Shown here piece after piece: positions 87 to 17,112 of a stretch of DNA of 53,203 bases. The stretch is from Isoptericola luteus. Lineage in GTDB: Bacteria; Actinomycetota; Actinomycetes; Actinomycetales; Cellulomonadaceae. Under the pieces are notes generated by a model, which worked only from the letters and a program-made list of their open reading frames with translations, made no database searches and was not told the DNA's origin. The stretch's first letter is position 1. The number at the start of each line of letters is the position of its first letter. The DNA lies in assembly GCF_020297055.1 (NCBI RefSeq), contig NZ_JAIXCQ010000010.1, forward strand, positions 85,975-139,177, read 5' to 3'. A program made the translations under genes and the position numbers.

Positions 87-2723
87 TCAGGCGGCGCGGC
101 GCAGGCGCAGGGAGTTGCCCACGACGATGACGGACGACGCGGCCATGGCCGCCCCGGCGATCATCGGGTTGAGCAGCCCCGCCGCGGCCAGCGGGATCGC
201 GGCCACGTTGTAGGCGAACGCCCAGAACAGGTTCTGCTTGATCACCCGCAGCGTGCGCCGGGACAGCCGGACGGCGGCCGCCGCGGACCGCAGGTCGCCG
301 CGCACCAGCGTGATGTCGCTCGCCTCGATGGCGACGTCCGTGCCGGTGCCCATGGCCAGGCCCAGGTCGGCGGTGGCGAGCGCCGCCGCGTCGTTCACGC
401 CGTCGCCCACCATCGCGACGACGCGCCCCTCGCCCTGCAGGCGCCCCACGACGGCGGCCTTGTCCTGCGGGAGGACCCGGGCGATGACGGCGTCGTCGGC
501 GATGCCCACCTCGCGGGCGGCGACGCGGGCTGCGCCCTCGCCGTCGCCGGTGAGGAGGACCGGGCGCAGGCCGAGGTCACGCAGCTCGCGCACCGCGGCG
601 GCGGAGGTCGCCTTGACCGGGTCGCGCAGTACGACGATGCCTCGCGCGGCGCCGTCCCAGGCGACGACGACGGCGCTCGCGCCGGTCCGCTCGGCGTCGT
701 CGAACGCTGCGGCGAGACCGCCGTCGAGCACGACACCCTGACCGGCCAGCCACGACGGCTGCCCGACCAGCACGCGCCGGGCGTTGAGCCCGCCGTCGGC
801 GGCGAGCCCGGCGAGCCCCGAGTGGGCGCGCCGCACCACCGCCTCGACCCCGCCGCCCGGCGTGGCGCGGAAGTCGAACGCCTGGAGCGCGCCGATGCCG
901 ACGCCGTCGGCCCCGGTCGAGCTGTCAGGATCAGGTGCATCAGAACGTGCACGTGGTCCTGACAGCTCCGTGGCGGCGTCCGCGACGGCCGTGGCGATCG
1001 GGTGCTCGCTGAGCGCCTCGACGGCGCCGGCGTAGGCCAGCACCTCGCGCTCCGCCGCCCCGAGCGAGCTGTCAGGCCCAGGACCACCGGAACGTGCACG
1101 TGAACCTGACAACTCGGGGGAGGTGGGGGTGAGGACCCGCTCCACGCGCATGCGGCCCTGCGTGACGGTGCCGGTCTTGTCCAGCACGACGGTGTCGACA
1201 CGGCGCGTGGACTCCAGGATCTGCGGGCCCTTGATGAGGATGCCGAGCTGCGCGCCCCGGCCGGTGCCGACCAGCAGGGCGGTGGGCGTGGCCAGGCCCA
1301 GGGCGCACGGGCACGCGATGATCAGCACCGCCACGGCGGCGGTGAACGCGAGCTGCAGGTCCGCGCCGGACAGCAGCCAGCCGGCGAGCGTGAGCACCGC
1401 CAGCCCCAGCACCACGGGCACGAACACGGCCGAGATCCGGTCCGCCAGCCGCGCCACGGGCGCCTTGCCGGTCTGCGCGCGGGCGACGAGTCGCCCGATC
1501 TGCGCGAGCGTCGTCTCCTCGCCGACCCGCGTCGTGCGGACCAGCAGGTGGCCCGACGTGTTCATCGTCGCCCCGGTCACGGCGTCGCCCGGCCCGACGT
1601 CCACCGGCACGGGCTCGCCCGTGAGCAGCGACGTGTCGAGCGCGCTCGCGCCCTCGACGACCTCGCCGTCCGTCGCGACCTTCTCGCCCGGGCGCACCAC
1701 GAACACGTCGCCCACGCGCAGCTCCGCGACCGGCACGCGGTCGGTGAGCCGGGCGCCATCAGGCCCGACGGCGGGCGTGCCGTCGCCCGTGAGCCGCACC
1801 CGCTCGGCGTCCTTGGCGCCCAGCTCGAGCAGCGCGCGCAGGGCGTCGCCCGCACGCCGGCGCGAACGGTGCTCGGCGTACCGGCCGGCCAGCAGGAACG
1901 TCGTCACGACGGCGGCGACCTCGAAGTACAGCTCCGGTGCGCCGTCCGACGGCGAGGGCAGCAGCGACGGCCGCATCCGCATGCCGAGCTCGCCCGCGCC
2001 GCCGAGCAGCAGCGCCCACAGCGACCACAGTGTCGCGGCGACGACGCCGAGCGACACGAGCGTGTCCATCGTCGACGCCCCGTGGCGGGCCGCGCGTGCC
2101 GCCGCCGTGTGGAACGGCCACGCCCCCCACGTCACGACCGGCAGCGCGAACGCCGCCACGAGCCACTGCCAGCCCGTGAGCTGCAGCGCGGGGAGCATCG
2201 ACAGCGCGACGACGGGGACGGTGAGCACGGCGGACACCACGAGCCGGCGGCGCAGGTCCGTGCCGCGCAGGTCCGTGTGGCGCAGGCCCTTGGCGTCGTC
2301 GGCCCGGTGAGCGGCGGGGGCGCCGGCACGGCCGTCGGCCACGTCGTGCGACGGCTCGGCCGCGACGGGACCGGCGCCGGCTGTGGACGTCGCTGTGGAC
2401 GTCGCTGTGGACGGGCCTGTGGGTGCGGGCGAAGGCGCGGAGGGCTCGGGCGGCGCGACGTCGCGACGGGCGGTGACGTGCGCGGTGTACCCGGCCTTCT
2501 CGACGGCCTCGACGAGCGCGGCGTCGTCGACGTCGGCCGTGAGCTCGATGTGCGCGCTCTCCAGCGGCAGGTTCACGGTCGCGAGGACGCCGTCGACGCG
2601 GTTGAGGCGCTTCTCGACGCGGGCGACGCACGACGCGCACGTCATGCCGTCGATGGCGAGGTCGATCTCCGCGATCGGCAGGCCGGGGCCGTCAAGGGCC
2701 GTGGATGCGGTGGGGGTGCTCAT
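87..2723 (-). CDS. copA: Copper-exporting P1B-type ATPase (CopA)
   Basis: An 878-residue heavy-metal P-type ATPase that would export Cu(I) across the cytoplasmic membrane at the cost of ATP. One N-terminal metal-binding domain carries MTCASC near residues 27-32. A long Ala/Pro/Thr-rich linker with a short tandem repeat (STATSTATST) follows. Then come the membrane helices, the ion-binding CPC motif near residue 472, the phosphorylation loop DKTGT near 514, SEHP in the nucleotide domain and GDGVNDAAAL near 773. CPC together with the CxxC domain indicates copper rather than zinc or cadmium. It is the last gene of a csoR / copZ-like / copA set, 161 nt after the chaperone gene. Two 50-bp palindromic elements (919-968 and 1066-1115) interrupt the nucleotide-binding domain in frame, adding two related peptides (ELSGxRARS...PDSS). 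Both lie outside the catalytic motifs, so the enzyme may still work. Confidence 0.95.
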   Translation of the reverse strand: MSTPTASTALDGPGLPIAEIDLAIDGMTCASCVARVEKRLNRVDGVLATVNLPLESAHIELTADVDDAALVEAVEKAGYTAHVTARRDVAPPEPSAPSPAPTGPSTATSTATSTAGAGPVAAEPSHDVADGRAGAPAAHRADDAKGLRHTDLRGTDLRRRLVVSAVLTVPVVALSMLPALQLTGWQWLVAAFALPVVTWGAWPFHTAAARAARHGASTMDTLVSLGVVAATLWSLWALLLGGAGELGMRMRPSLLPSPSDGAPELYFEVAAVVTTFLLAGRYAEHRSRRRAGDALRALLELGAKDAERVRLTGDGTPAVGPDGARLTDRVPVAELRVGDVFVVRPGEKVATDGEVVEGASALDTSLLTGEPVPVDVGPGDAVTGATMNTSGHLLVRTTRVGEETTLAQIGRLVARAQTGKAPVARLADRISAVFVPVVLGLAVLTLAGWLLSGADLQLAFTAAVAVLIIACPCALGLATPTALLVGTGRGAQLGILIKGPQILESTRRVDTVVLDKTGTVTQGRMRVERVLTPTSPELSGSRARSGGPGPDSSLGAAEREVLAYAGAVEALSEHPIATAVADAATELSGPRARSDAPDPDSSTGADGVGIGALQAFDFRATPGGGVEAVVRRAHSGLAGLAADGGLNARRVLVGQPSWLAGQGVVLDGGLAAAFDDAERTGASAVVVAWDGAARGIVVLRDPVKATSAAAVRELRDLGLRPVLLTGDGEGAARVAAREVGIADDAVIARVLPQDKAAVVGRLQGEGRVVAMVGDGVNDAAALATADLGLAMGTGTDVAIEASDITLVRGDLRSAAAAVRLSRRTLRVIKQNLFWAFAYNVAAIPLAAAGLLNPMIAGAAMAASSVIVVGNSLRLRRAA
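919..968 (-). repeat. 50-bp palindromic in-frame insert, copy 1 (in copA)
   Basis: The ends are exact inverted 12-mers (GAGCTGTCAGGA / TCCTGACAGCTC). The inner part continues the pairing with one mismatch (CAGGTGCA / TGCACGTG) around an 8-nt loop, so nearly the whole element folds into one hairpin. Read on the copA strand it encodes ELSGPRARSDAPDPDSS. It is closely related to the copies at 1066-1115 and 12051-12100, with the same orientation and reading frame. Confidence 0.85.
1066..1115 (-). repeat. 50-bp palindromic in-frame insert, copy 2 (in copA)
   Basis: Same length and ends as copy 1: GAGCTGTCAGG at one end and CCTGACAACTC at the other, with one G-T type mismatch. It shares the internal stretch GGAACGTGCACGT with the family. 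On the copA strand it encodes ELSGSRARSGGPGPDSS. It lies between the DKTGT loop and the SEHP motif of CopA, about 100 bp from copy 1. Confidence 0.85.
2385..2414. repeat. 12-bp tandem repeat in the CopA linker
   Basis: GTGGACGTCGCT occurs twice in tandem and is followed by a partial third unit. On the copA strand it encodes a STAT-type repeat in the low-complexity linker after the metal-binding domain. The unit is a multiple of three, so length changes keep the frame. Confidence 0.7.
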
Positions 2724-2884
2724 CCGGGGTGACTCCCTGGTGCAGGTGCTGGGCGGAGGTCACCCGCGACGACCCGGGGTGGCGGGGTCGCGGTGGGGGC
2801 GCCGCGGTGGTGGACGGCGGCGCGGCGCGAGGAGCCGGACGTCGTGGGACGACGGGTCGGCCGGCTCCCCGCGGAAGGGGGCGG

Positions 2885-3265
2885 TCAGGCGCGCGGCGGG
2901 ACCGACAGGTCGTACGTCTTGGTGGCAGGCTGCTCCGCGGTGCCGGACGCGCCGCCACCGCCGCAACCGCACGCGCAGCTGTGCGCCTCCTGGCGCGCGG
3001 GAGCCTGCGCCGCCTGCTGGGCGGCGAGGGCGTCGGCCTGGACGGAGACGGACGAGACCTCGTAGCCGGCCTCGTCGACGGCCTCGCGCAGCGCGGCCTC
3101 GTCCAGGGGCTCGTCGGAGAAGACGGCGACCTCGGACTCGCCGCCGACGTTCAGCTCGACGGTCACGTCCTCGACGCCGGCGACATCCTTGAGGTCCGAC
3201 GTCACGTGCGCGACGCAGTTGGCGCACGTCATGCCGGTGACGCCCAGGGTGGTGACTGTGCTCAT
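2885..3265 (-). CDS. copZ: CopZ-like copper chaperone with a Cys-rich tail
   Basis: A 126-residue cytosolic protein with one heavy-metal-associated domain (residues ~1-75) carrying GMTCANC, the Cu(I)-binding CxxC site. After it comes an Ala/Gln-rich linker and a short cysteine cluster (CACGCGGGG, near residues 97-105). That cluster is not part of the standard ~68-residue chaperone and could be a second metal site. The ATG start at 3265 has an AGGAG ribosome site a few bases upstream. It follows csoR by only 24 nt and precedes copA, so it probably delivers Cu(I) to CopA and shares the csoR promoter. Confidence 0.88.
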   Translation of the reverse strand: MSTVTTLGVTGMTCANCVAHVTSDLKDVAGVEDVTVELNVGGESEVAVFSDEPLDEAALREAVDEAGYEVSSVSVQADALAAQQAAQAPARQEAHSCACGCGGGGASGTAEQPATKTYDLSVPPRA

Positions 3266-3289
3266 GAGTTCTCCTTGGCGGTGGTGGGT

Positions 3290-3616
3290 CTAGCTACGGA
3301 CGAGGCGGCCGATGGCGTCGGCGGCCTCCTTGACCTTCGCGGCGCCCTCGGCCTCCGACGCGCGGGCGGCGTCGACGACGCAGTGGCCCAGGTGGTCCTC
3401 GACCAGGCCGATGGAGACGGCTTGCAGGGCCTTGGTCACCGCGGACACCTGGGTGAGGATGTCGATGCAGTACACGTCCTCGTCGATCATCCTCGCGATG
3501 CCGCGCACCTGTCCCTCGATGCGGCGCATGCGCTTGAGGTACGCCCCCTTGTCGGAGGCGTAGCCGTGCGGTCCGTCGTGCTGGTGTCCGACGGCGGGGG
3601 CGGTGGTCTCGGTCAT
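3290..3616 (-). CDS. csoR: CsoR-family copper-sensing repressor
   Basis: A 108-residue all-helical metal-sensing repressor of the CsoR/RcnR family. The Cu(I)-binding Cys-His-Cys set is present with the family spacing: Cys50 in VYCID, then His75 and Cys79 in EDHLGHC. The characteristic RMRRIEGQVRGI stretch, which in the family contributes to DNA binding, is also present. The protein is expected to sit on its operator without copper and release it when Cu(I) binds. It is the first gene of the csoR-copZ-copA set. The ATG at 3616 is 6 nt from a TATGAT -10 box, so the message is probably leaderless. Confidence 0.93.
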   Translation of the reverse strand: MTETTAPAVGHQHDGPHGYASDKGAYLKRMRRIEGQVRGIARMIDEDVYCIDILTQVSAVTKALQAVSIGLVEDHLGHCVVDAARASEAEGAAKVKEAADAIGRLVRS

Positions 3617-3622
3617 GACGCC

Positions 3623-3650
3623 ATCATACCCCTAGGGGGTACACGGTCAA
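3623..3650 (-). promoter_or_regulatory. csoR-copZ-copA promoter with CsoR operator in the spacer
   Basis: Read on the minus strand: -35 TTGACC (3645-3650), a 16-nt spacer, and -10 TATGAT (3623-3628). A G-tract/C-tract palindrome of the CsoR operator type (TACCCC-TAG-GGGGTA, 3627-3641) fills the spacer and touches the -10 box, so a bound repressor would block RNA polymerase. The expected start of transcription falls on or next to the csoR ATG. Confidence 0.82.
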
Positions 3651-3909
3651 GCGTGCGGGTCGCCGTCGCCCAGCCCTCCGTTGACCCGAAGGCTCTCGCG
3701 CAGGCGTCCGCCGCGTCGTCTGACCAGCCCGTCCGGGTACCAGATCAGCGTGTCACCTGTCCCGAGGACTCACGTCTGGTCGGCCCCGCGCTCGCGCCGC
3801 GCGCGGGGCACGCCGTACCGGTGCGTCGCCGGACCGCGCCTCGAGGCCATGCGGTAACATAAGCGCACGGTTACGCCGCTAGACATATGTTTATGGAAGG
3901 GAGGATCGA

Positions 3910-4242
3910 GTGAAACGCCACCGGTCGTACCTGCCGCAGACGCACGCCGCGCTGCGGGCCCTCGGTGGTGAGATCGCGATCGCTCGTCGTGAGCTCGGGT
4001 GGAGCGCTGCTGAGCTCGCCGACAGGCTCGGCTCGAGCCCTGGTCTCGTCGGGCGGATCGAACGCGGCGAGCCCGGGACGGCGGTCGGCACCGTGCTCGA
4101 GGCTGCCGTGCTGTGCGGCGTGCCGCTGTTCGGCGTCGAGGCGCGAGAGCTCGGGAGCGTGGCGTCGCGTGTGATCGACAAGCTCGCGCTGCTGCCCCAG
4201 CGGGTGCGACGTCACGACATCGAGGTGCCCGATGACTTCTGA
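3910..4242 (+). CDS. XRE-family (HipB-like) antitoxin/regulator
   Basis: A 110-residue protein with a helix-turn-helix over residues ~18-75 (IAIARRELGWSAAELADRLGSSPGLVGRIERGEPG). The second helix and the RIERG end are typical of XRE/HipB regulators. It overlaps the following hipA-like gene by 11 bp, so the two are translationally coupled. In HipBA systems the HipB partner binds and neutralises HipA and represses the operon; that role is inferred here. The GTG start at 3910 has a GGAGG-type site upstream (GGGAGGATCGA). The preceding ~50 bp are unusually AT-rich for this genome (TAACATAA, CATATGTTTATG) and probably hold the promoter and autoregulatory site. Confidence 0.85.
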   Translation: MKRHRSYLPQTHAALRALGGEIAIARRELGWSAAELADRLGSSPGLVGRIERGEPGTAVGTVLEAAVLCGVPLFGVEARELGSVASRVIDKLALLPQRVRRHDIEVPDDF

Positions 4243-5524
4243 GCCGCGCGCGCCGGAGCGGGTGTACGTCTGGGTGTGGCTGCGCGGCCAGTCGGAGCCC
4301 GTGGTTGCGGGCGCCCTCCAGGACTCGCACGCGGTTCTCGAGGGGCAGTCGGTGCTCGTGTTCCGGTACGCCGCCAGCTACCGGCGCCGCCCGGAGGCGG
4401 TCTCCCTGTTCACCCCCGAGCTGCCGGTGTCTGACCAGGTGCTGGATCCGCGAGACCGGCCGGGCCGTGTTCCGCTCCCGGTCGCGGGGGTGCTCAGAGA
4501 CGCAGCGCCGGACGCGTGGGGCCGGAGGGTCATCAACGCTCGGCTCGGAGCCGAGGAACGGGACCTGAGCGAGCTGACGTACATGCTCTCGTCCGGGTCG
4601 AACCGGATCGGCGCGATCGACTTTCAGCCAGCGCCGGACGAGTACATCGCCCGTGACCAGGATGCGACGCTCGAGGAGCTGCTCGAGCTGGTCGACCTGA
4701 TCGAGCGGGGTGAGCCGGTTCCAGCCTCGCTCGCCGCGGCTGCGCAGCACGGTACCTCCATCGGAGGGGCACGACCGAAGGCGCTCCTGCAGGACGGCGA
4801 CCGGCAGCTCGTGGCGAAGTTCTCGTCGTCGACGGACACCCGACCGGCGGTGCAGGCGGAAGCCGTGGCGATGCTCCTTGCGCGGAGGGCCGGCATCAAC
4901 GTCCCGGACGTCGAGGTGACGCGGGCCGCGGGCCACGAAGTCCTGCTGCTCGACCGGTTCGACCGTGTCGCGAAGCCAGCGGGAGAGGGGACGGCACGAT
5001 TCGAGCGCCGCCAGATGATCACGATGCTGACGGTGCTGGGCCTGCGCGAGATGAGCTCCTACCAGGCGACGTACGCGCAGCTGGCGGACGCCGTACGCAC
5101 CGGGCCGTGGACCGACGTCCGAGGGACGCTCACGGAGCTGTACACGCGGCTGGTGTTCAACGTCCTCGTCGGGAACAACGACGACCACCTGCGCAACCAC
5201 AGCGCGTTCTGGGACGGGCACAGGCTGTCCCTGACGCCCGCCTACGACCTAGCACCTCAGATGCGGTCCACCCGGACGTCTTCACAGGCGATCGGCATCA
5301 CGCGCGACGGCCGACGCAGCTCGCAGCTGCGCCTGTGCACGATGGTCGCCAGCGACTTCCAGCTGTCGGAGGCGGCCGCGGGCGAGATCGTCGACCGGGT
5401 GCGCGGGGCGATCGACGAGCACTGGGACGACGCGTGCGACCAGGCACGGCTGACCGCGGCCCAGCGCCAGTCGCTGATGGGGCGGGAGTTCCTGAACCCC
5501 TACGTGTTCTACGACGAGGCATAG
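4232..5524 (+). CDS. hipA: HipA-family serine/threonine kinase toxin
   Basis: A 430-residue HipA-type protein, close to the usual length. The N-terminal subdomain (~1-120) is followed by the kinase fold. GTSIGGARPKALL (near residue 175) matches the HipA glycine-rich loop. NVLVGNNDDHLRNHS (near 315) is the catalytic loop with the aspartate, and LTPAYDLAP (near 335) is the metal-binding loop. Known HipA toxins phosphorylate an aminoacyl-tRNA synthetase (GltX in E. coli) and induce dormancy; the target here cannot be told from sequence. The gene is coupled to the HipB-like gene by an 11-bp overlap. All catalytic motifs look intact, so it is probably active rather than a relic. Confidence 0.9.
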   Translation: MTSEPRAPERVYVWVWLRGQSEPVVAGALQDSHAVLEGQSVLVFRYAASYRRRPEAVSLFTPELPVSDQVLDPRDRPGRVPLPVAGVLRDAAPDAWGRRVINARLGAEERDLSELTYMLSSGSNRIGAIDFQPAPDEYIARDQDATLEELLELVDLIERGEPVPASLAAAAQHGTSIGGARPKALLQDGDRQLVAKFSSSTDTRPAVQAEAVAMLLARRAGINVPDVEVTRAAGHEVLLLDRFDRVAKPAGEGTARFERRQMITMLTVLGLREMSSYQATYAQLADAVRTGPWTDVRGTLTELYTRLVFNVLVGNNDDHLRNHSAFWDGHRLSLTPAYDLAPQMRSTRTSSQAIGITRDGRRSSQLRLCTMVASDFQLSEAAAGEIVDRVRGAIDEHWDDACDQARLTAAQRQSLMGREFLNPYVFYDEA

Positions 5525-5536
5525 CGGGTCGAGACC

Positions 5537-5558
5537 CGGCGTGGGGTCGTCCACGCCG
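5537..5558. terminator. Hairpin between convergent hipA and hemL
   Basis: CGGCGTGG (5537-5544) pairs with CCACGCCG (5551-5558) across a 6-nt loop, in the 54-bp gap between the two convergent genes. It has no T-tract; it probably serves both directions. Confidence 0.5.
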
Positions 5559-5578
5559 ACCGTGCGCCGCCCGAGCGG

Positions 5579-6940
5579 TCAGGCGCGCGCCCGCGCGGCG
5601 GCCTTCGCCCCCGCAGGGAGCGCGTCGAGGATGCGCGAGACCGCGTCGTCGTCGTGCGCCGCGGAGACGAACCACGCCTCGAAGACCGACGGCGGCAGGT
5701 TGACGCCCTCGTCGAGCAGCGCGTGGAACAGCGCGCGGTAGCGGAATGCCTCCTGGGCCTGCGCCTGCGCGTAGTCGCGCACGCCGTGCTCGGCCGCGGC
5801 GGGCCCGAAGAACGCGGAGAACAGCGAGCCGGCGCGCTGCACGCGGTGCGGCACCCCCTCCGCGTCGAGCGCGGCCCCCAGGGCGGTGGCCAGGGTGTCG
5901 GCGACGGCGTCCACCCGGTCGTAGACGGCGTCGTCAGCCAGCCGCAGCGTGGTCAGCCCGGCGGCGACGGCCACCGGGTTCCCGGACAGCGTGCCCGCCT
6001 GGTACACCGGCCCGGTCGGGGCGAGCTGGTCCATGATCGCCGCCGGGCCGCCGAGACCCGCCACGGGCATCCCGCCGCCCACGACCTTGCCGAACGTCAG
6101 CAGGTCGGGGTCGTAGCCCTCGCCTCCGGCCGCGTGGATCGCGGCGTTCTCCAGGCCCCACCAGCCGGACGGGCCGACGCGGAAGCCGGTGAGCACCTCG
6201 TCCATGACGAACAGGGCGCCGTGCTCGCGGGTGATGCGGCGCAGGCCCTCGTTGAACCCCTCGGCGGGCGGCACCACGCCCATGTTGGCGGGGCTCGCCT
6301 CGGTGATGACGGCCGCGATGCGGGGGCCGTGCTCCGCGAACGCGGCCTCGACGGCCGCGAGGTCGTTGTACGGGAGCACAAGCGTCTCCGCGGCGGACGC
6401 CTCGGTCACGCCCGCGGTGCCCGGCATGGCGAGGGTCGCGACGCCGGACCCGGCCTCGGCCAGCAGCGCGTCGACGTGCCCGTGGTAGCAGCCCGCGAAC
6501 TTCACGACCAGCGGGCGCCCGGTGACGCCGCGCGCCAGGCGCACCGCCGTCATCGTCGCCTCGGTGCCGGTGGACACCAGCCGCACGCGCTCGGCGAGCG
6601 GCACCCGGCGGCGGATCTCCTCCGCGAGCTCGACCTCGCCCTCGGTCGGGGCGCCGAACGACAGTCCCCGGGCCGCGGCCTCCTGCACCGCGGCGACCAC
6701 GGCCGGGTGCGCGTGCCCCAGCAGCGCCGGCCCCCACGAGCAGACGAGGTCCACGTACTCGCGGCCCGCGACGTCGGTGACGTAGGCGCCGCGCGCGGAC
6801 GCGAGGAACCGTGGGTCGCCGCCCACGGAGCCGTACGCCCGCACGGGCGAGTTCACGCCCCCGGGGATGACGGCCTGCGCGCGCGCGAACGCCGCGCCGT
6901 TGTCGTGGGAGCTGCCGCCGGTCGGGGTCGTGCCGTTCAC
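5579..6940 (-). CDS. hemL: Glutamate-1-semialdehyde 2,1-aminomutase
   Basis: A PLP enzyme that converts glutamate-1-semialdehyde to 5-aminolevulinate, the step after HemA in the C5 haem pathway. Family motifs are present: [11 protein letters not shown] near the N-terminus, [40 protein letters not shown], and [14 protein letters not shown] with the PLP lysine. Length (453 residues) is normal. I prefer GTG at 6940: it overlaps the hemB stop as GTGA, like the other junctions in this cluster, and has GGAG 8 nt upstream. A GTG at 6949 would add three residues. It is the last gene of hemC-hemD-hemB-hemL. Confidence 0.95.
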
Positions 6941-7968
6941 TTGATCCACTCCGCGATCTCGAGGGCCCAGTAGGTGAGGATGATGTCGGCGCCGGCGCGC
7001 TTGATGCCGAGCACCGACTCCAGGACGGACGCCTTGCGGTCGATCCAGCCGTTCGCCGCCGCGGCCTCGATCATCGCGTACTCGCCCGACACCTGGTACG
7101 CCGCGACGGGCACGTCGGACCGGTCCGCGACGCCGCGCAGCACGTCCAGGTACGACCCGGCGGGCTTGACCATCACCATGTCGGCGCCCTCGGCGAGGTC
7201 GAGGTCCGCCTCGCGCAGCCCCTCGCGGGCGTTGGCGGCGTCCATCTGGTAGGTCCGGCGGTCGCCCTGCAGGGCGGAGTCCACGGCCTCGCGGAAGGGG
7301 CCGTAGAACGGGCTCGCGTACTTGGCGCTGTAGGCGAGGACGCTCACGTGCTCGAAACCCGCGTCGTCCAGCGCGTCGCGAATCACGGCCACCTGGCCGT
7401 CCATCATGCCCGACGGCGCGACGACGTCCGCGCCCGCCTTCGCCTGCGCCACGGCCATGGCGGCGTAGCGCTCGAGGGTGGCGTCGTTGTCCACGACCTG
7501 CTCGCCGTCGGGACCGGTGACCAGCACGCCGCAGTGGCCGTGGTCGGTGAACTCGTCCAGGCAGGTGTCGGCCATGACGACGGGCCCGGGGCGTCCGGCG
7601 GTGCCGGGCGCGGCCTCCGCCTCGACGGCGGCGACGGCCTCGCGGGCGGTCCGGATCGCGCGCTGCAGGATGCCGTCGGGCGCCTCGGCGGCCGAGCCGG
7701 TCGCGTCGCGCACGGCGGGGATGCCGAACAGCATGACGCCGCCCAGCCCGGCGCGGGCGGCGTCGGCGACGGCGTCGCGCAGCGTGGCCTCGGTGTGCTG
7801 CACCTGCCCGGGCATGCTCGTGATCGGCACGGGGGCGTCGATGCCCTCCTTGACGAAGAGCGGCAGCACCAGGTCCGCCGGGTGCAGACGGTGCTCGGCG
7901 ACGAGGCGGCGCAGGCGCGGCGTGGCGCGCAGGCGGCGCGGCCGGTAGACGATGCCCGAGGTGCTCAC
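6937..7968 (-). CDS. hemB: Delta-aminolevulinic acid dehydratase (porphobilinogen synthase)
   Basis: Condenses two 5-aminolevulinate molecules to porphobilinogen. Recognised from [16 protein letters not shown], the two Schiff-base lysine regions ([16 protein letters not shown] and [11 protein letters not shown]), [10 protein letters not shown] and the normal 343-residue length. In the metal-site motif the central cysteine of the zinc enzymes (CLCEY) is aspartate (CLDEF), which suggests a Mg- or other non-zinc-dependent type. The GTG start overlaps the hemD stop as GTGA, and its stop overlaps the hemL start. Confidence 0.96.
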
Positions 7969-8822
7969 GGGTGCTCCTTGCTGGTGGTGGGCGCTGAGGC
8001 TGACGTGGGTGGGAGGGCTGGGGAGGTCGCCGCTGGGAGGGCTGGGGAGGTCGCCGCTGGGAGGGCTGGGGAGGTCGCCGCCGGGAGGGCGGTGGCGACG
8101 GCGGCGGCGAGGCCGTCGTCGGTGGGGGTGGCGGCGACGGCGGCCACGGTGAGACCGGCCTCGCGTGCCGCGGCGGCCGACGGGCCGCCGATCGCGACGA
8201 CGGGCGTGCCGGTGCCGACCTGGCGTGCGACCTCGCGCGCCGCGGAGCCGGACGCGACGACGACGAGGTCGAAGCCGCCGTCCGTGGCGCGCCGGGCGAC
8301 GTCAGGGGCCAGCTCGTGGCGCACGGTGCGGTAGGCGGTCACGACGTTGGGCGCCCAGCCGGCGGCGGAGAGGCCGCGGGCGAGGGTCGGCGAGGCGAGG
8401 TCCCCCAGGGGCAGCAGCACGCGGTGCGGCGCCGCGGGCCCGGGCGGGGGGAACGCCGCGACGAGGCCCGCAGCGGTGGCGTCGTCGTCGGCGGGCAGCA
8501 GGTCGACGCGCACGCCGACGTCCTCGAGCGCCGAGCGGGTCGCGGGCCCGACGGCGGCCCAGCGGGTGGCGGCCCGCGCGAGGTCCACCCCGGCGCGGCG
8601 GGCGGCGTCGTGCAGGGCGCCGACGGCGTTGACGCTGGTCACGACCACCCAGCGGTACTCGCCGCCGGCGACGGCACGGGCTGCGGCGTCGAGCGGGGCG
8701 TGGTCGTCGGCGGGGGCCCGCTCGATGACGGGCGCGGCGACGGCGTCGACGCCGGACGCCCGCAGGCGCGCGACCAGCGCCGCCGCGCGCCCGGCGGACC
8801 GCGCCACCCACACCGCCGTCAC
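7965..8822 (-). CDS. hemD: Uroporphyrinogen-III synthase with a repeat-expanded C-terminus
   Basis: Closes hydroxymethylbilane to uroporphyrinogen III. HemD is poorly conserved, so the call rests on the fold pattern ([31 protein letters not shown] at the N-terminus, [50 protein letters not shown]) and on its place between hemC and hemB. GTG at 8822 overlaps the hemC stop as GTGA, giving 285 residues; a much longer open frame upstream is antisense or shadow sequence over hemC. The last ~45 residues contain four TSPALP units, three encoded by a 24-bp tandem repeat (8011-8082), and are probably a disordered tail not needed for activity. Confidence 0.88.
8011..8082. repeat. 24-bp tandem repeat, three units, in the hemD 3' end
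   Basis: Three head-to-tail copies at 8011-8034, 8035-8058 and 8059-8082, identical except for the last base. Each begins GGGAGGGCTGGGGAGG and ends TCGCCGC(T/C). The hemD strand reads AATSPALP. Near-identity of the copies points to recent expansion by slippage. Confidence 0.9.
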
Positions 8823-9814
8823 GAAGGCTCCGGCGCGCCGCCGACGAGCGGCGCGAGCCGCGCGGCTCCCTCGGCGAGCAGGGCCTCCGCCACGCGCACG
8901 CCGAGCGCGAGGGCAGCGGCGTCCTGGGCGGCGTGGTCGTCGGGCACCAGGTCCGTGGCGGCGTCGTGCCGGAGCTGCTCGGTGCCGTCCACCCGGGCGA
9001 CCACGGCCGCGAGCTGCAGCTCCCCGGCGTCGACCCGGGCGAGCGCGCCGATCGGGGCGGCGCAGCCGGCCTCGAGCCGCGCCAGCACCGCCCGCTCGGC
9101 GAGGACGGCCAGGCGTGTCGGGCGGTGGTCCAGCGCGGCGAACGCGTCGGCGAGGACGGTGCCGGGCGCCAGGTCCGCCGTGCGCGCCTCGACGGCGAGC
9201 GCGCCCTGCCCGGGGGCGGGGGCGACGACGATCGGGTCCAGCACCTCGCTGACGACCGCCGTCCGCTCCAGGCGGGCCAGGCCCGCGTAGGCGAGGACGA
9301 CCGCGTCGAGGTCGGCGTCCGGGCCGAGCGCGCGGGCCAGCCGCGTCTCGACGTTGCCGCGGATGTCGACGACCTCCGCGTCCGGCCGCGCGGCCCGCAG
9401 CTGCGCCGCGCGCCGGGGCGAGCCGGTGCCGATCCGGGCCCCTCGCGGCAGGGTCTCGAGCGTCAGCCCGTCGCGGGCGCACAGCGCATCGCGGGGGTCC
9501 TCGCGCTCGGGCGTGACGACGGTCAGGTCGTCGGGCTGCGTGGTCGGCAGGTCCTTGAGGGAGTGCACGGCGACGTCGCAGCGGCCCTGGAGCAGCGCCT
9601 CGCGCAGCGCGGTGACGAACACGCCCGTGCCGCCGAGCGACGCGAGCGAGCCGGTCTTGACGTCGCCCTCGGTGCGCACGCGCACGAGCTCGACCTCGCG
9701 GCCGAGCAGCTCGGTCAGCCGCCGGGCGACGTGCCCCGACTGGGTGGTGGCGAGCGCGCTGCCTCGGGTGCCGAGGCGCAGCGGTGCGGTTCCGGACGAC
9801 GTGGGGGTGCTCAC
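8819..9814 (-). CDS. hemC: Hydroxymethylbilane synthase (porphobilinogen deaminase)
   Basis: Polymerises four porphobilinogens into hydroxymethylbilane. Diagnostic stretches: LRLGTRGSALATTQSGHVA at the start, KTGSLASLGGTGVFVTALREALL, CDVAVHSLKDLPT, GTGSPRRAAQL, and GCAAPIGALA, which carries the dipyrromethane-cofactor cysteine. GTG at 9814 (VSTPTSSGTAPL) gives 331 residues, normal for the family; the open frame runs further upstream but into non-conserved sequence. It starts a tightly coupled hemC-hemD-hemB-hemL unit (each junction GTGA). It is separated from hemY by 85 nt, which may hold its own promoter. Confidence 0.95.
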   Translation of the reverse strand: MSTPTSSGTAPLRLGTRGSALATTQSGHVARRLTELLGREVELVRVRTEGDVKTGSLASLGGTGVFVTALREALLQGRCDVAVHSLKDLPTTQPDDLTVVTPEREDPRDALCARDGLTLETLPRGARIGTGSPRRAAQLRAARPDAEVVDIRGNVETRLARALGPDADLDAVVLAYAGLARLERTAVVSEVLDPIVVAPAPGQGALAVEARTADLAPGTVLADAFAALDHRPTRLAVLAERAVLARLEAGCAAPIGALARVDAGELQLAAVVARVDGTEQLRHDAATDLVPDDHAAQDAAALALGVRVAEALLAEGAARLAPLVGGAPEPS

Positions 9815-9899
9815 CCGTCCAGTGTCGCGCAGTCGCCGCGCCGGTGGGCAACCCACCGGCCGGCAGAGGCCGATCTCACACCACGCCGACGGGGCACCG

Positions 9900-11381
9900 T
9901 CAGAGGGCCGCGACCGTGGACTGCGCGTGGGTGACGATGGCGGCCAGGCCGGTGCCCGCCACCCACCCGCCGGTGACGGCGAGCCCCGGCGTGTGCCCGA
10001 CGGCGGCGGCGAAGCTCGCCACCTGTGCGCGGTACGCCGGGGTGGGCGGGGGCAGGGAGCCGTCCCAGCGCTGCAGCAGGTGGTCGCGGACGCGACCGGT
10101 GAGGTCCACACCGAGCAGCGCGGACGCGTCACGTGCCGCCTCGTCGGCGGTGGGCGGCGTCGTCGGCGACCCGATCCGCCCGTACGACAGCCGCACCACG
10201 TGCACCCCGGGCCCGGCGACGGCGCGCACGCGGTCGGCCAGCCACGGCCACTTCGCCGTGGAGTGCGTCAGGGCCTTGGCCCGCAGGCCGGAACCCTCAC
10301 CCGCCGGGGCTACGAGCAGCCCCGAGCCGCGGGGGGCGTCGTCGAGCTCGGGCGCGTCCGCCAGCAGCGTGACCAACCAGATGTCGGCGCCCTGCTCCGG
10401 CCGCGGCGCCGCGACGTCGACCCAGGGCTCGACCAGCGGTGCGACGTCGGGCGTCGCGACGATCAGCCGCGGGGCGCGCACGACGTCGCCTACCGCGGTC
10501 CGCACGTACCAGTCGCCGCCGGCGCCCGCGGCGGGGTCGCGCGCGACGTCGACCACCCGCTGCCCCACGCGCACCGCCGCGTGGATGGGGCCGGTCTGGT
10601 CCGAGGTGGGGGAGTCCGCGAACTCCTCGGCGCTCGCGGCGACCTCGCCGGTGAGGGCCTCGACCAGCGCGTGGATCCCGCCGCGGATGCCGCGGACGGC
10701 GGACCCGGCGGGCGCGGCGGCGCGCAGCTCGGCCACCGCCCGGGACAGCGAGCCTGTGCGCGCGTACGCCTCGAGCAGGCCCGGGGCGACGGACGCGACG
10801 TCGAGCCGGTCCAGGGGCGCGGAGTGGACGCCGGTCGCGACCGGTGCGACGAGGCGCTCGGCCACGCGGCCGCCAAGCCGCGAGCGCACGAGCGTGCCGA
10901 GGTCGGTGGTGTCGCCGACGACCCGGGGGAGCACCCGGTCGAGCGCCGCGCGCGCGACGCCGGTCCAGCCGATCGCCCGGCGCACGTCCGAGGCCCACGG
11001 CACGGACGGGATGCCGAGCACGCCGGCCGCGGGCAGCGGGAACGCGTCGCCGTCCGCGTAGCCCCACGCGGACAGGTCGGCGGGGGCCACGACGTCGAGC
11101 CCCAGCTCGTCGGCGAGGTCGGTCACCGCGGTGCCGCGCACGGCGAACGACTCGGCGCCGAGGTCGAGGCGCAGCCGGGGCAGCGTCGGGAGCACGCCGC
11201 CGCGGACGGGCCCGCCCACGCGGTCGGACGCCTCGAGCACCACCACCTGCAGCCCGCGGCGCACCAGCGTGCGCGCGGCGACCAGCCCGCCGACCCCGCC
11301 GCCCACGACGACGGCGTGGACGCGCTCCGGGGGCCGCGCGTCGGCGAAGGGCTCGCCGGGGGTCGCCGGCCCGGGCGTCAC
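9900..11381 (-). CDS. hemY: HemY-type protoporphyrinogen/coproporphyrinogen oxidase
   Basis: FAD-dependent oxidase that removes six electrons from protoporphyrinogen IX or, in the coproporphyrin-dependent route typical of Actinobacteria, from coproporphyrinogen III (CgoX). The N-terminal dinucleotide motif is AVVVGGGVGGLVAARTL with VVVLEASDRVGG. AESFAVRG, VATGVHSAPLDRLDVASVAP and the C-terminal TGGWVAGTGLAAIV FAD segment fit the HemY family. Length is 493 residues. GTG at 11381 overlaps the hemE stop as GTGA, so hemE and hemY are coupled. Whether it uses copro- or protoporphyrinogen cannot be decided from sequence alone. Confidence 0.92.
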   Translation of the reverse strand: MTPGPATPGEPFADARPPERVHAVVVGGGVGGLVAARTLVRRGLQVVVLEASDRVGGPVRGGVLPTLPRLRLDLGAESFAVRGTAVTDLADELGLDVVAPADLSAWGYADGDAFPLPAAGVLGIPSVPWASDVRRAIGWTGVARAALDRVLPRVVGDTTDLGTLVRSRLGGRVAERLVAPVATGVHSAPLDRLDVASVAPGLLEAYARTGSLSRAVAELRAAAPAGSAVRGIRGGIHALVEALTGEVAASAEEFADSPTSDQTGPIHAAVRVGQRVVDVARDPAAGAGGDWYVRTAVGDVVRAPRLIVATPDVAPLVEPWVDVAAPRPEQGADIWLVTLLADAPELDDAPRGSGLLVAPAGEGSGLRAKALTHSTAKWPWLADRVRAVAGPGVHVVRLSYGRIGSPTTPPTADEAARDASALLGVDLTGRVRDHLLQRWDGSLPPPTPAYRAQVASFAAAVGHTPGLAVTGGWVAGTGLAAIVTHAQSTVAAL

Positions 11382-12577
11382 AGCGAGTGCACCAGCTCGA
11401 CGACGCGGGTGAGCACGGTGGGATCGGTGTCGGGCGGGACGCCGTGGCCGAGGTTGACGACGTGGCCGGGCGCCCCCGCGCCGCGCGCGACGACGTCGCG
11501 GACGTGCGCCTCGAGCACGGGCCAGGGGGCGCCGAGCAGCGCCGGGTCGACGTTGCCCTGCAACGGCATCCGGCCGACGGCGGCCGCGGCCTCGTCCAGG
11601 GGGGTGCGGTAGTCGACGCCCACGGTCGGGTGGGTGATCCCGGCGTTCGTGAGCACGTTGCGCATGGCGGGCAGCAGGTGCGCCGTCCCGGTGCCGAAGT
11701 GGATGCCCGGCACGCCGGTGTCGCTGCCCGGCACGCGCAGGTCGGCCACGTGGGTCAGCGCCCGCATCGACGACGGCGCCACGTGCGCCTGGTAGTCCGC
11801 GAGCGACAGCGACCCGGCCCAGGAGTCGAAGAGCTGCACCGCGGACGCCCCGGCCAGCACCTGCGCGCGCAGGAACGCCCCGGTGAGGTCCGCGGTCCAG
11901 GCGGTGAGCCGCGCCCACGTCTCGGGGTCGGCGTGCATGAGGGTGCGCGCGGCGAGGTGGTCGCGCGACGGGCGGCCCTCCACCAGGTAGGCGGCGAGGG
12001 TGAAGGGCGCGCCGCCGAACCCGATGAGCGGCGTCGTCGACCCCTCCGGCGAGTTGTCAGGCTCACGTGCACCAGAAGGTGCGCGAGCGCCTGACAGCTC
12101 GTCGAGGCCTGCCACGGTGCGGCGCACAGCGTCCGTGATCGGCGCGAGCGCCTCCTCGGTGAGCCCCCGCTCGACCAGCCGCGCGACGTCGTCGGCCGTG
12201 CGGTACGGGCGGTCCATGACCGGCCCCACACCGGCCTTGATGTCCACGTCCACCCCGGCCAGGCGCAGCGGCACGACGATGTCGCTGAAGAAGATCGCCG
12301 CGTCCACACGGTGGCGCCGCACGGGCTGGAGGGTGATTTCCGCCGCCAGGTGTGGCATGAGGCACGACTCGATCATCCCTACCCCTTGACGGACCTCGCG
12401 GTACTCCGGCAGCGAACGGCCGGCCTGCCGCATGAACCAGACGGGGGTCGTGGCCGGGCGATCGCCCCGCAGCGCACGCACGAGCGGGGAGGTCGACGTC
12501 CGGCCGTCGACCAGCGGGTGGTCGGCGGGCAGGTGGACCGGGGCGGTGGCCGCAAGCGTGGGGGATGTCACGGTCAA
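11378..12577 (-). CDS. hemE: Uroporphyrinogen decarboxylase
   Basis: Decarboxylates uroporphyrinogen III to coproporphyrinogen III. Recognised from TPVWFMRQAGRSLPEYR, AAIFFSDIVVPL, PLIGFGGAPFTLAAYLVEG, QLFDSWAGSLS, GIHFGTGTAHLLP, VGVDYRTPL and LQGNVDPALL. A 50-bp palindromic element (12051-12100) adds ELSGARAPSGAREPDNS just before PLIGFGGAPFTL, a position where I expect only a short loop; total length is 399 residues. TTG at 12577 has a G-rich site 8 nt upstream; GTG at 12571 is an alternative two codons later. Divergent from hemA across about 43 bp. Confidence 0.95.
   Translation of the reverse strand: MTVTSPTLAATAPVHLPADHPLVDGRTSTSPLVRALRGDRPATTPVWFMRQAGRSLPEYREVRQGVGMIESCLMPHLAAEITLQPVRRHRVDAAIFFSDIVVPLRLAGVDVDIKAGVGPVMDRPYRTADDVARLVERGLTEEALAPITDAVRRTVAGLDELSGARAPSGAREPDNSPEGSTTPLIGFGGAPFTLAAYLVEGRPSRDHLAARTLMHADPETWARLTAWTADLTGAFLRAQVLAGASAVQLFDSWAGSLSLADYQAHVAPSSMRALTHVADLRVPGSDTGVPGIHFGTGTAHLLPAMRNVLTNAGITHPTVGVDYRTPLDEAAAAVGRMPLQGNVDPALLGAPWPVLEAHVRDVVARGAGAPGHVVNLGHGVPPDTDPTVLTRVVELVHSL
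12051..12100 (-). repeat. 50-bp palindromic in-frame insert, copy 3 (in hemE)
   Basis: Same architecture and length as the two copA copies, 11 kb away: GAGTTGTCAGGC at the left, GCCTGACAGCTC at the right, and a self-complementary interior (CACGTGCACC / GGTGCGCGAG). On the hemE strand it encodes ELSGARAPSGAREPDNS, aligning residue for residue with the copA peptides, in the same frame and orientation. Confidence 0.85.
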
Positions 12578-15696: not shown

Positions 15697-17112
15697 TCAC
15701 CAGGTGGCGTGGTCGGTGCCCCACGGGTGGGCTGGGGCGCGGTGGTCGTCGGCGCCCGGCAGGGCGGGGAGCGCCGTCGTGACGCGCGGCCGGTGCCCGT
15801 GGCTGCTGGTGGCGTCCGACGCCGGCCGGCGGGCGGGCGGGTGCGCACGGTCGCGCTCGCCGACGTCGAGCAGCCACGCGCCCGTGCGCGCGAGCGCCGC
15901 GCTCACCTCGCGGCCCAGCCCGTCGCGTTCCCGGGCGGCGAGGGCGTCGACGACGGCGGCGGCGAGCAGGTAGCCGGTGGCGTGGTCCAGGGCCTGGGCG
16001 GGCAGCGCCCCCGGGGCGGCGCCGTCTTGCGACTCGACCAGGGCGATGCCCGACGCCGCCTGGACGATCGAGTCGAAACCCCGACGGTGCGCCAACGGAC
16101 CGTCGTCGCCCCAGGCGCTCACCCGTGCGTGCACGGCCCCGGGCGGGACCCGCAGCCCGAACCGGTCCAGCGCGCCCGGCCGGTAGCCGGTGACGAGCAC
16201 GTCCGCCTCGTCGAGCAGCGCCTGGGCGCGCTCGTGGTCGCCCGGCTCGTGCAGGTCGAGCAGCGCGCTCCGCTTGCCCTGCCCGGTGTCGAGGTGCTGC
16301 CAGCGGATCTCGGCGGGCACCGGCGGGTCCACCCGGAGCACGTCGGCACCCAGCTGGGCCAGGGCCCGCGTGGCCACCGGGCCGGCGACGACGCGCGTGA
16401 GGTCCAGGACGCGGACCCCGGCGAGCACCGCGCCCGGGTCGGCCCCGACGCTCCGCGGCCTGCCGGTACGCGGCCTGCCGGTACGCGGCCTGCCGGTACG
16501 CGGGCTCCCGGCGCCCGGTGCCCCGGCGGCGACCCCGTCCTCGCGCGCGACGACCCGCACCAGCGGCGCACCGCGCAGGGCGGCGGCCGGCGCGGACGCG
16601 CGCCACTCCTGCTCGTCGCGCACCCGCACGACGACGGCGCCCGCCGCGGCGGCGTCGTCCTCGAGCCGGGCACCGGGCACCTGCGCGACGCGTGCAGCGA
16701 CGTCGTCCCGGCCGGCGCCGTCGGTCAGACCGAGCAGGTGCAGCAGCCGTGCCCGGTGGTGCGGGTAGTTCGCGTGCGTGCGGACCCAGCCGTCGGCAGC
16801 GGGGAAGAACCCCGACAGCGAGGCGAACCCCTCCACGGCCCGGCCGTCCAGGAGCAGCAGCCGGTCGGAGCCGAACGCCGCGGCCACCCGCGCCGGGTCG
16901 GGTCCCCGGGTCGTCAGCGGGCCGGTGGCGCCGGCACGGCCGGCGGCGGCGCACAGGGCCGCCACGGAGCCGAGCGCGAGGTCGAGCACGGGCAGGGTCG
17001 CCGCGAGCCAGGCGTCGCGCACGCCGTCGGGCGGGGGCGGGGTCGAGGGATGCGTCACGACGTCGCCGAGGCCCGCCTCGTAGTCCGACACCAGGGTGCG
17101 CCACGGGTCCAT
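15697..17112 (-). CDS. CaiB/BaiF (family III) CoA-transferase, apparently permuted
   Basis: A 471-residue CoA-transferase-related protein. The usual family N-terminus (RVLDLTRVVAGPVATRALAQLGADVLRVDPP, then QGKRSALLDL, ADVLVTGYRPGALDRFGL, FDSIVQAASGIA) begins only near residue 245. The first ~200 residues instead resemble the usual C-terminal part (ADGWVRTHANYPHHRARLLHLLGL, EQEWRA...ALRGAPLVRV). The order of the halves is therefore reversed, or the gene derives from a tandem duplication that lost its outer halves. The CoA donor and acceptor are unknown. A 15-bp triplicate repeat (16456-16500) lies between the two parts. Minus strand, divergent from the kinase-like gene. Confidence 0.82.
   Translation of the reverse strand: MDPWRTLVSDYEAGLGDVVTHPSTPPPPDGVRDAWLAATLPVLDLALGSVAALCAAAGRAGATGPLTTRGPDPARVAAAFGSDRLLLLDGRAVEGFASLSGFFPAADGWVRTHANYPHHRARLLHLLGLTDGAGRDDVAARVAQVPGARLEDDAAAAGAVVVRVRDEQEWRASAPAAALRGAPLVRVVAREDGVAAGAPGAGSPRTGRPRTGRPRTGRPRSVGADPGAVLAGVRVLDLTRVVAGPVATRALAQLGADVLRVDPPVPAEIRWQHLDTGQGKRSALLDLHEPGDHERAQALLDEADVLVTGYRPGALDRFGLRVPPGAVHARVSAWGDDGPLAHRRGFDSIVQAASGIALVESQDGAAPGALPAQALDHATGYLLAAAVVDALAARERDGLGREVSAALARTGAWLLDVGERDRAHPPARRPASDATSSHGHRPRVTTALPALPGADDHRAPAHPWGTDHATW
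16456..16500. repeat. 15-bp tandem repeat, three units, in the CoA-transferase linker
   Basis: CGGCCTGCCGGTACG occurs three times exactly at 16456, 16471 and 16486. On the gene strand it encodes RTGRP repeats between the two halves of the CoA-transferase. It keeps the frame. Confidence 0.9.

Follow-up and report, generated by a model that had tools for sequence, protein, structure and literature searches.

A dispersed palindromic repeat of fixed 50-bp length, read in a single frame within conserved genes of Isoptericola luteus and related genomes

How do two conserved enzymes of Isoptericola luteus come to harbour the same short palindrome, read in the same frame? The question is raised by the window considered here, the whole stretch of 53,203 nt that was analysed, in which three such elements lie within a copA-like gene and hemE:

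87..2723, minus strand: copA-like P-type ATPase gene with HMA, E1-E2_ATPase and HAD hydrolase domains; hosts E1 and E2
919..968, minus strand: palindromic element E1, 50 bp, within copA; encoded reading ELSGPRARSDAPDPDSS
1066..1115, minus strand: palindromic element E2, 50 bp, within copA; encoded reading ELSGSRARSGGPGPDSS
11378..12577, minus strand: hemE, uroporphyrinogen decarboxylase (URO-D), with a putative start codon; hosts E3
12051..12100, minus strand: palindromic element E3, 50 bp, within hemE; encoded reading ELSGARAPSGAREPDNS

Each element is exactly 50 bp long, begins and ends with GAG(C/T)TGTCAGG and CCTGACA(A/G)CTC, and encodes the peptide ELSG...PDSS/PDNS. An earlier, sequence-only reading had described three 50-bp palindromes at these positions, two in copA and one in hemE, with shared ends, near-complete dyad symmetry, a common reading frame and aligned peptides. 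This description holds throughout: Pfam domains agree with both hosts (HMA P-type ATPase and URO-D), and single-strand folding generates a hairpin from both strands of every element (z −2.66 to −8.49), with none of 200 shuffles as stable in five of the six folds, and 6/200 for the plus strand of 1066–1115. As the elements are nearly symmetric, their agreement in orientation says little; the informative signal is the common reading frame. Elsewhere in the window, positions 1–58, just 3′ of the copA stop, form a perfect inverted repeat with 24-nt arms and 10 nt between them that bears no relation to the 50-bp family, whilst 16455–16499 contains three copies of a 15-bp tandem repeat, GCGGCCTGCCGGTAC.

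That the elements belong to a dispersed family, as first proposed from the window, is borne out by the source genome (G000; 3,974,819 bases, 26 contigs), which harbours further copies in number: 34 exact matches and 73 with up to three mismatches. Reversed control patterns return none in either case, so the family is not a product of chance. All 34 exact matches measure 50 bp, although the gap was left free from 20 to 36, and a pattern with a gap of 34 in place of 30, which acts as a length control, gives no matches. Within 1,579,683 bases of the same genome, 36 copies of 50 bp are present with up to four end mismatches, versus a single copy in total for ten other lengths between 44 and 56; only 3 of these 36 display three or four mismatches, and thus decayed copies are rare. 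Across 587,661 bases from eight genomes, exact TGTCAG...CTGACA pairs enclose an inner gap of 30 in 157 cases and no other gap below 46, in a set that was picked for holding 50-bp copies, such that only the own-genome length tests are free from this selection.

The family ends read GAGYTGTCAG and CTGACARCTC, with a consensus for the fetched own-genome copies of GAGTTGTCAGG-(28)-CCTGACAACTC and a core of about CACGTGCACGTTCC. Across 163 copies, 9.58 of the 15 inner pairs conform to dyad symmetry, versus 4.62 at random, and overall palindromicity is much the same in coding (19.0/25 pairs, 47 copies) and non-coding examples (18.7/25, 112 copies). Covariation between the arms, assessed copy by copy on oriented copies, is uneven: the observed pairing is reached by 0 of 2000 shuffles in both G017 and G014, and by 19 in G010, 282 in G005, 622 in G004 and 1881 in G000. 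A conserved RNA structure is therefore not claimed; the claim is confined to dyad symmetry.

With regard to distribution, a relaxed pattern (≤2 mismatches) identifies carriers both in the genus (9/18 genomes, with per-genome matches of 66, 48, 47, 20, 19, 17, 8, 6 and 1, followed by nine zeros) and in a sample of the family (45/200 genomes, representing 11 of 25 genera); the reversed pattern finds none in either set. This pattern would miss genomes whose ends have diverged further, and the single match seen in several family genomes is weak taken alone. No exact matches to the element occur in viral_contigs, and among the matches listed in the open-licence literature no title names such an element for actinobacteria. 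Comparisons between species draw upon fetched stretches of eight genomes, in which 163 copies are recognised by their ends alone (G000, 58; G017, 34; G005, 18; G004, 16; G014, 15; G010, 15; G002, 4; G019, 3). Whole-genome counts, made by other criteria, are higher (73, 47, 20, 17, 48, 19, 6 and 12, respectively), and so the fetched set represents a part only. A palindrome filter of 15/25 pairs yields 155 copies in 118 clusters. Stretches L116 and L124 were removed as duplicates: in the source genome, the elements and their near flanks are identical between L107 and L116 and between L118 and L124, which lie on separate contigs (C1/C3 and C5/C13) and represent either duplicated regions or an assembly effect.

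Coding status was assigned using a codon model trained on these genomes, requiring one open frame and a coding score on both flanks, a rule that is blind to genes broken by a copy. On this basis 41 of the 118 clusters, from seven of the eight genomes, are strictly intragenic, and all 41 are read in frame 0, where the first codon begins at element base 1 and the product is ELSG...PDNS; the suspected preference for one coding frame is therefore upheld. Eight more clusters, intragenic according to a simple gene caller, are likewise in frame 0, and a further four possess coding flanks on one strand without a single strict frame (three intergenic and one intragenic by the gene caller). Stop codons alone do not dictate this choice since, over 310 element orientations, frame 1 (SCQ...LTT) is open in 293, frame 0 in 286 and frame 2 in one. 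The 41 clusters are distributed over 20 protein families, which include CopA, biotin carboxylase, LUD domain, MoeA, HutH, molybdopterin oxidoreductase, AMP ligase, Fpg-type glycosylase, lipoyl E2, TPP enzyme, ABC transporters, GDSL lipase, helicase, GH67, HemD, NHL and XdhC, as well as one without a Pfam match; as 10 of the 20 are occupied in more than one genome, the clusters are not independent events. Tandem pairs within genes have a period of 60 bp (five cases) or 63 bp (one). In the 1.58 Mb own-genome sample, 5 of 20 clusters are intragenic, all in frame 0, and 15 lie outside genes, although the coding share of this sequence is 0.89–0.92; insertion into genes is thus strongly disfavoured. 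Separately, the short peptides GEKGAxRPLT and SExRWAxAHQASDT recur in conserved enzymes (L114 in G000; L141 and L145 in G017), and are perhaps the product of other in-frame repeat families.

The 77 clusters that are not strictly coding comprise 38 between same-direction genes, 19 convergent, 11 divergent, 8 intragenic and 1 at a contig edge. Those in the same-direction class lie a median of 10 bp from the upstream stop and 58 bp from the downstream start, with the upstream stop being nearer in 33/38 (p 4e-6), and within 25 bp in 33/38. Tandem copies outside the strictly coding clusters have a period of 61 bp in 25 cases, 62 bp in four and 60 bp in two. At four loci of G017 (L134, L138, L142 and L147) there are also tandem and dispersed repeats with GCGCTACCTCGGCGA, at a period of approximately 20 bp.

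Such proximity to upstream stops is in keeping with functional sites at the DNA or RNA level, be they 3′ stem–loops or targets of a regulatory or nucleoid protein. Selection would maintain them at each place, and the core would follow a partner whose specificity changes from species to species. The strict 50-bp geometry, the species-specific and mostly symmetric consensus, and the small number of decayed copies would all suit this arrangement. Set against it are the nine genus genomes in which the relaxed pattern finds no copy, the third or so of clusters (41/118) residing within genes of 20 unrelated families, and the lost or reduced sites of close relatives; moreover, no T run follows any of the three window copies, and Rfam returns three tRNAs as its sole matches across the window, with none to the element. 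We regard this explanation as unlikely.

Comparison of individual sites across species begins with HemE, where a 50-bp copy is present in 2 of 18 genus genomes (the source genome and G005), with different cores, and is missing from the remaining 16. From 80 named hemE loci fetched, whose 471,671 bases contain no copies, 39 relatives were aligned, the nearest being Antribacter, Oerskovia, Cellulomonas and Cellulosimicrobium, and the peptide is absent from all 39, some of which possess other short inserts at the same place. The sequence-only reading had proposed aligning HemE with close relatives in search of empty sites, and none of these aligned sequences shares the insert. It had also placed the insert at a loop position, which the structural model of HemE (mean pLDDT 92.7) supports: the insert occupies residues 156–172, between a helix (137–160) and a strand (180–185), and is predicted as a low-confidence loop, with a mean pLDDT of 52 for residues 161–170. 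One might still suppose that the peptides are ancestral protein segments rather than inserted DNA, particularly as several species of the genus have the same sites. However, the empty HemE relatives, the occurrence of the same DNA in intergenic regions and in 20 unrelated families of proteins, and the different cores borne by one site in different species refute this idea, which we consider scarcely credible.

At the site of E1, the second of the two in CopA, examined in 17 of 18 genomes (G001 being left out), 50-bp copies with exact TGTCAG ends are found in G000, G014, G008, G017 and G005; G010 has a copy with a damaged end, G011 a remnant, and nine genomes have none. The E2 site is occupied also in G014 and G010. 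In the copA gene of G004 (L228, 2124–2173) both sites have apparently been fused by an in-frame deletion, with the intervening SEHPIA segment gone from the frame. Of 13 clusters in G004, 11 can be joined to the close relatives G010 or G011 and two cannot; at the joined sites these relatives either have a core that differs, retain a remnant, contain unrelated sequence or have nothing. Judged by flanks, the same or nearly the same site is occupied in at least two genomes for CopA, biotin carboxylase, LUD protein, MoeA, HutH, molybdopterin oxidoreductase, Fpg-type glycosylase, HemE and lipoyl E2.

Sites are therefore common to several species, whilst the 30-bp core is mostly species-specific. Consensus cores differ among the eight genomes compared, and core identity is 0.59–0.73 within genomes and 0.26–0.59 between them, relative to 0.36 at random. 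At orthologous sites the mean is 0.48 (range 0.23–0.77, n=19 comparisons), such that most copies resemble their sisters more than their counterpart at the same site. The exception is the pair G000/G010, whose CopA copies are 0.70 and 0.77 identical, versus within-genome means of 0.68 and 0.59; the mean between these two genomes, 0.59, equals the within-genome mean of G010. Homogenisation is accordingly incomplete.

The common sites could be old vertical insertions without present mobility. In its full form, this holds that all of them are so, that the likeness of the cores is due solely to ordinary homologous gene conversion, and that nothing is mobile now. The nine protein families with sites occupied in at least two genomes are readily accommodated by it, as are the G000 and G010 copies that are alike at the CopA sites, and the greater similarity of adjacent tandem copies (0.85 vs 0.68 in G000; 0.81 vs 0.74 in G017). 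Dispersed copies, however, have in common only about 11 bp per end and part of the core, which is short for homologous recombination, and the family is patchily present across genera. We therefore consider this account improbable.

The explanation preferred here, to which we assign a probability of roughly 60 %, is that of a non-autonomous, REP/RPE-like palindromic family, mobilised in trans and turning over in place. A putative enzyme supplied in trans would recognise the TGTCAG...CTGACA ends at their fixed spacing and insert or rewrite copies. Those landing within genes would persist only as a hydrophilic ELSG...PDNS peptide in a flexible loop, with a net length that preserves the frame, whilst those 3′ of stop codons would persist more freely, often as tandem pairs. 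Ongoing replacement may keep the cores of one genome alike, either because copies re-insert at old sites or because sister copies convert them. Counting against this reading are the absence of observed transposition, the lack of a Y1 transposase in the genus, of a clear target-site duplication and of a longer partner in the 1.58 Mb sample, the failed hairpin-loop target, the common sites themselves, which old vertical insertions could also explain, and the likeness of the G000 and G010 CopA copies, by which homogenisation is incomplete. A bolder version, which we put forward only tentatively, is that a putative non-Y1 enzyme, reading both TGTCAG ends at their set distance, rewrites 30-bp cores in situ throughout the genome, conserved enzymes included; protein loops would then undergo concerted evolution with a selfish DNA family, confined to one tolerated frame.

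As to which enzyme might be responsible, the sequence-only reading had favoured a REP-associated tyrosine transposase (RAYT). The REP-like location, dimers and intragenic copies would accord with this (compare PMC3733652), but a profile search for Y1_Tnp (PF01797) is negative in 18/18 genus genomes with a control positive in 5 of 14 known genomes, the GTAG tag is absent, and the element is longer than REPs. Within the sensitivity of the Pfam model, mobilisation by RAYT is hence refuted for this genus, and we give it next to no credence. Across 83 single-copy clusters, target-site duplication shows a slight excess at 2–4 bp (0.410 vs 0.361, 0.333 vs 0.309 and 0.325 vs 0.316) and none at 5–12 bp. 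No longer element with the same ends is present in 1,579,683 of the 3,974,819 bases (40 %) of the source genome, where the three lone ends found are all beside known copies. It is from this combination, no Y1 transposase, no clear duplication and no longer partner, that we infer a putative enzyme acting in trans, which goes beyond the pattern itself. Insertion into the loop of a pre-existing hairpin was also considered and rejected, as an element's own flanks pair no better than those of different copies, either in the 41 coding clusters (p 0.55) or in the 77 non-coding ones (p 0.32). With that test failed, all that remains is a composition bias, the flanks being pyrimidine-rich 5′ of the element and purine-rich 3′ of it (0.62–0.64 vs 0.36–0.39).

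In two genomes the elements have neighbours of their own, namely repeats with GGCGGGTTCAAGCGGTCGTCGCAACA. In G014, 9 of their 10 ends are separated from an element by 7–8 bp, as are 3 of the 4 in G010; with one weaker end in G017, which has no element beside it, this makes 12/15 listed ends. Five further genomes searched, G000 among them, lack the repeats. We take them to resemble IS30-type ends:

L154, 3050–3182; L157, 3105–3337; L160, 3085–3169; loci L317–L331 (G014 and G010): inverted repeats, presumably IS30-like

The flanks at two G014 loci fit insertion into the 11-bp spacer of an element pair. An IS interior was not found, and in the two loci read end to end the middle is short or N-filled. 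We call these repeats a parasite of the 50-bp repeat.

A title by Ogata et al. in 2002 reportedly presents protein-coding palindromes as unique to Rickettsia. They are now seen in high-GC actinobacteria, in a shorter form of fixed length whose density in several genomes suffices for statistics. With cores being replaced at sites that species have in common, the homogenisation of a dispersed 50-bp repeat becomes directly open to study, and the elements allow one to ask how proteins absorb selfish DNA as loops. For annotation they carry a warning, in that ELSG...PDNS segments are not domains. From the original interpretation, the dispersed palindromic family tolerated by proteins in one frame survives and spread by RAYT (Y1_Tnp, 0/18) does not; to it are added the strictly fixed length, the position just 3′ of genes, the tandem pairs, and the common sites with mostly species-specific cores.

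Amongst known systems, the REPs of the GTAG and CGTC superfamilies (Di Nocera et al. 2013; PMC3733652) are short palindromes of 20–40 bp with family-specific stems, in which the conserved motif is an unpaired tag, GTAG or CGTC, at one of the ends. Most of them lie no more than 20 bp from the 3′ end of a gene, frequently as dimers, and intragenic copies adding amino acids are already on record in several species of other groups, including one case, recB, at about the same site in two species; the main text of that paper contains no occurrence of 'actinobact'. The 50-bp elements are similar in lying mostly near gene 3′ ends (33/38 at ≤25 bp from the upstream stop) and in tandem, with a period of 60–63. 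They differ in their strict length (34/34 exact matches), in a motif that is paired and present at both ends (GAGYTGTCAG/CTGACARCTC), in a spacer of mostly 11 bp, and in having no Y1 transposase (PF01797, 0/18). MITEs (PMC10969869) are matched in that the elements are small, dispersed, built as inverted repeats and apparently non-autonomous; a target-site duplication is not clear here (slight excess at 2–4 bp, none at 5–12 bp, 83 clusters), and 1.58 Mb contain no longer partner sharing the ends. Rickettsia palindromic elements (RPEs), according to PMC10969869 and PMC3733652, insert in frame into many unrelated genes and encode a conserved peptide; they measure about 150 bp and form ten families (PMC10969869), with RPE-4 and RPE-6 classed as CGTC REPs (PMC3733652). 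Compared by description, the present elements share the in-frame position and conserved peptide (41/41 clusters, 20 families), but differ in size (50 bp vs about 150 bp) and in a host that is not Rickettsia, the named HemE relatives being actinobacteria. The 50-bp family fails the REP tests of size, tag and RAYT, yet works like REPs and RPEs.
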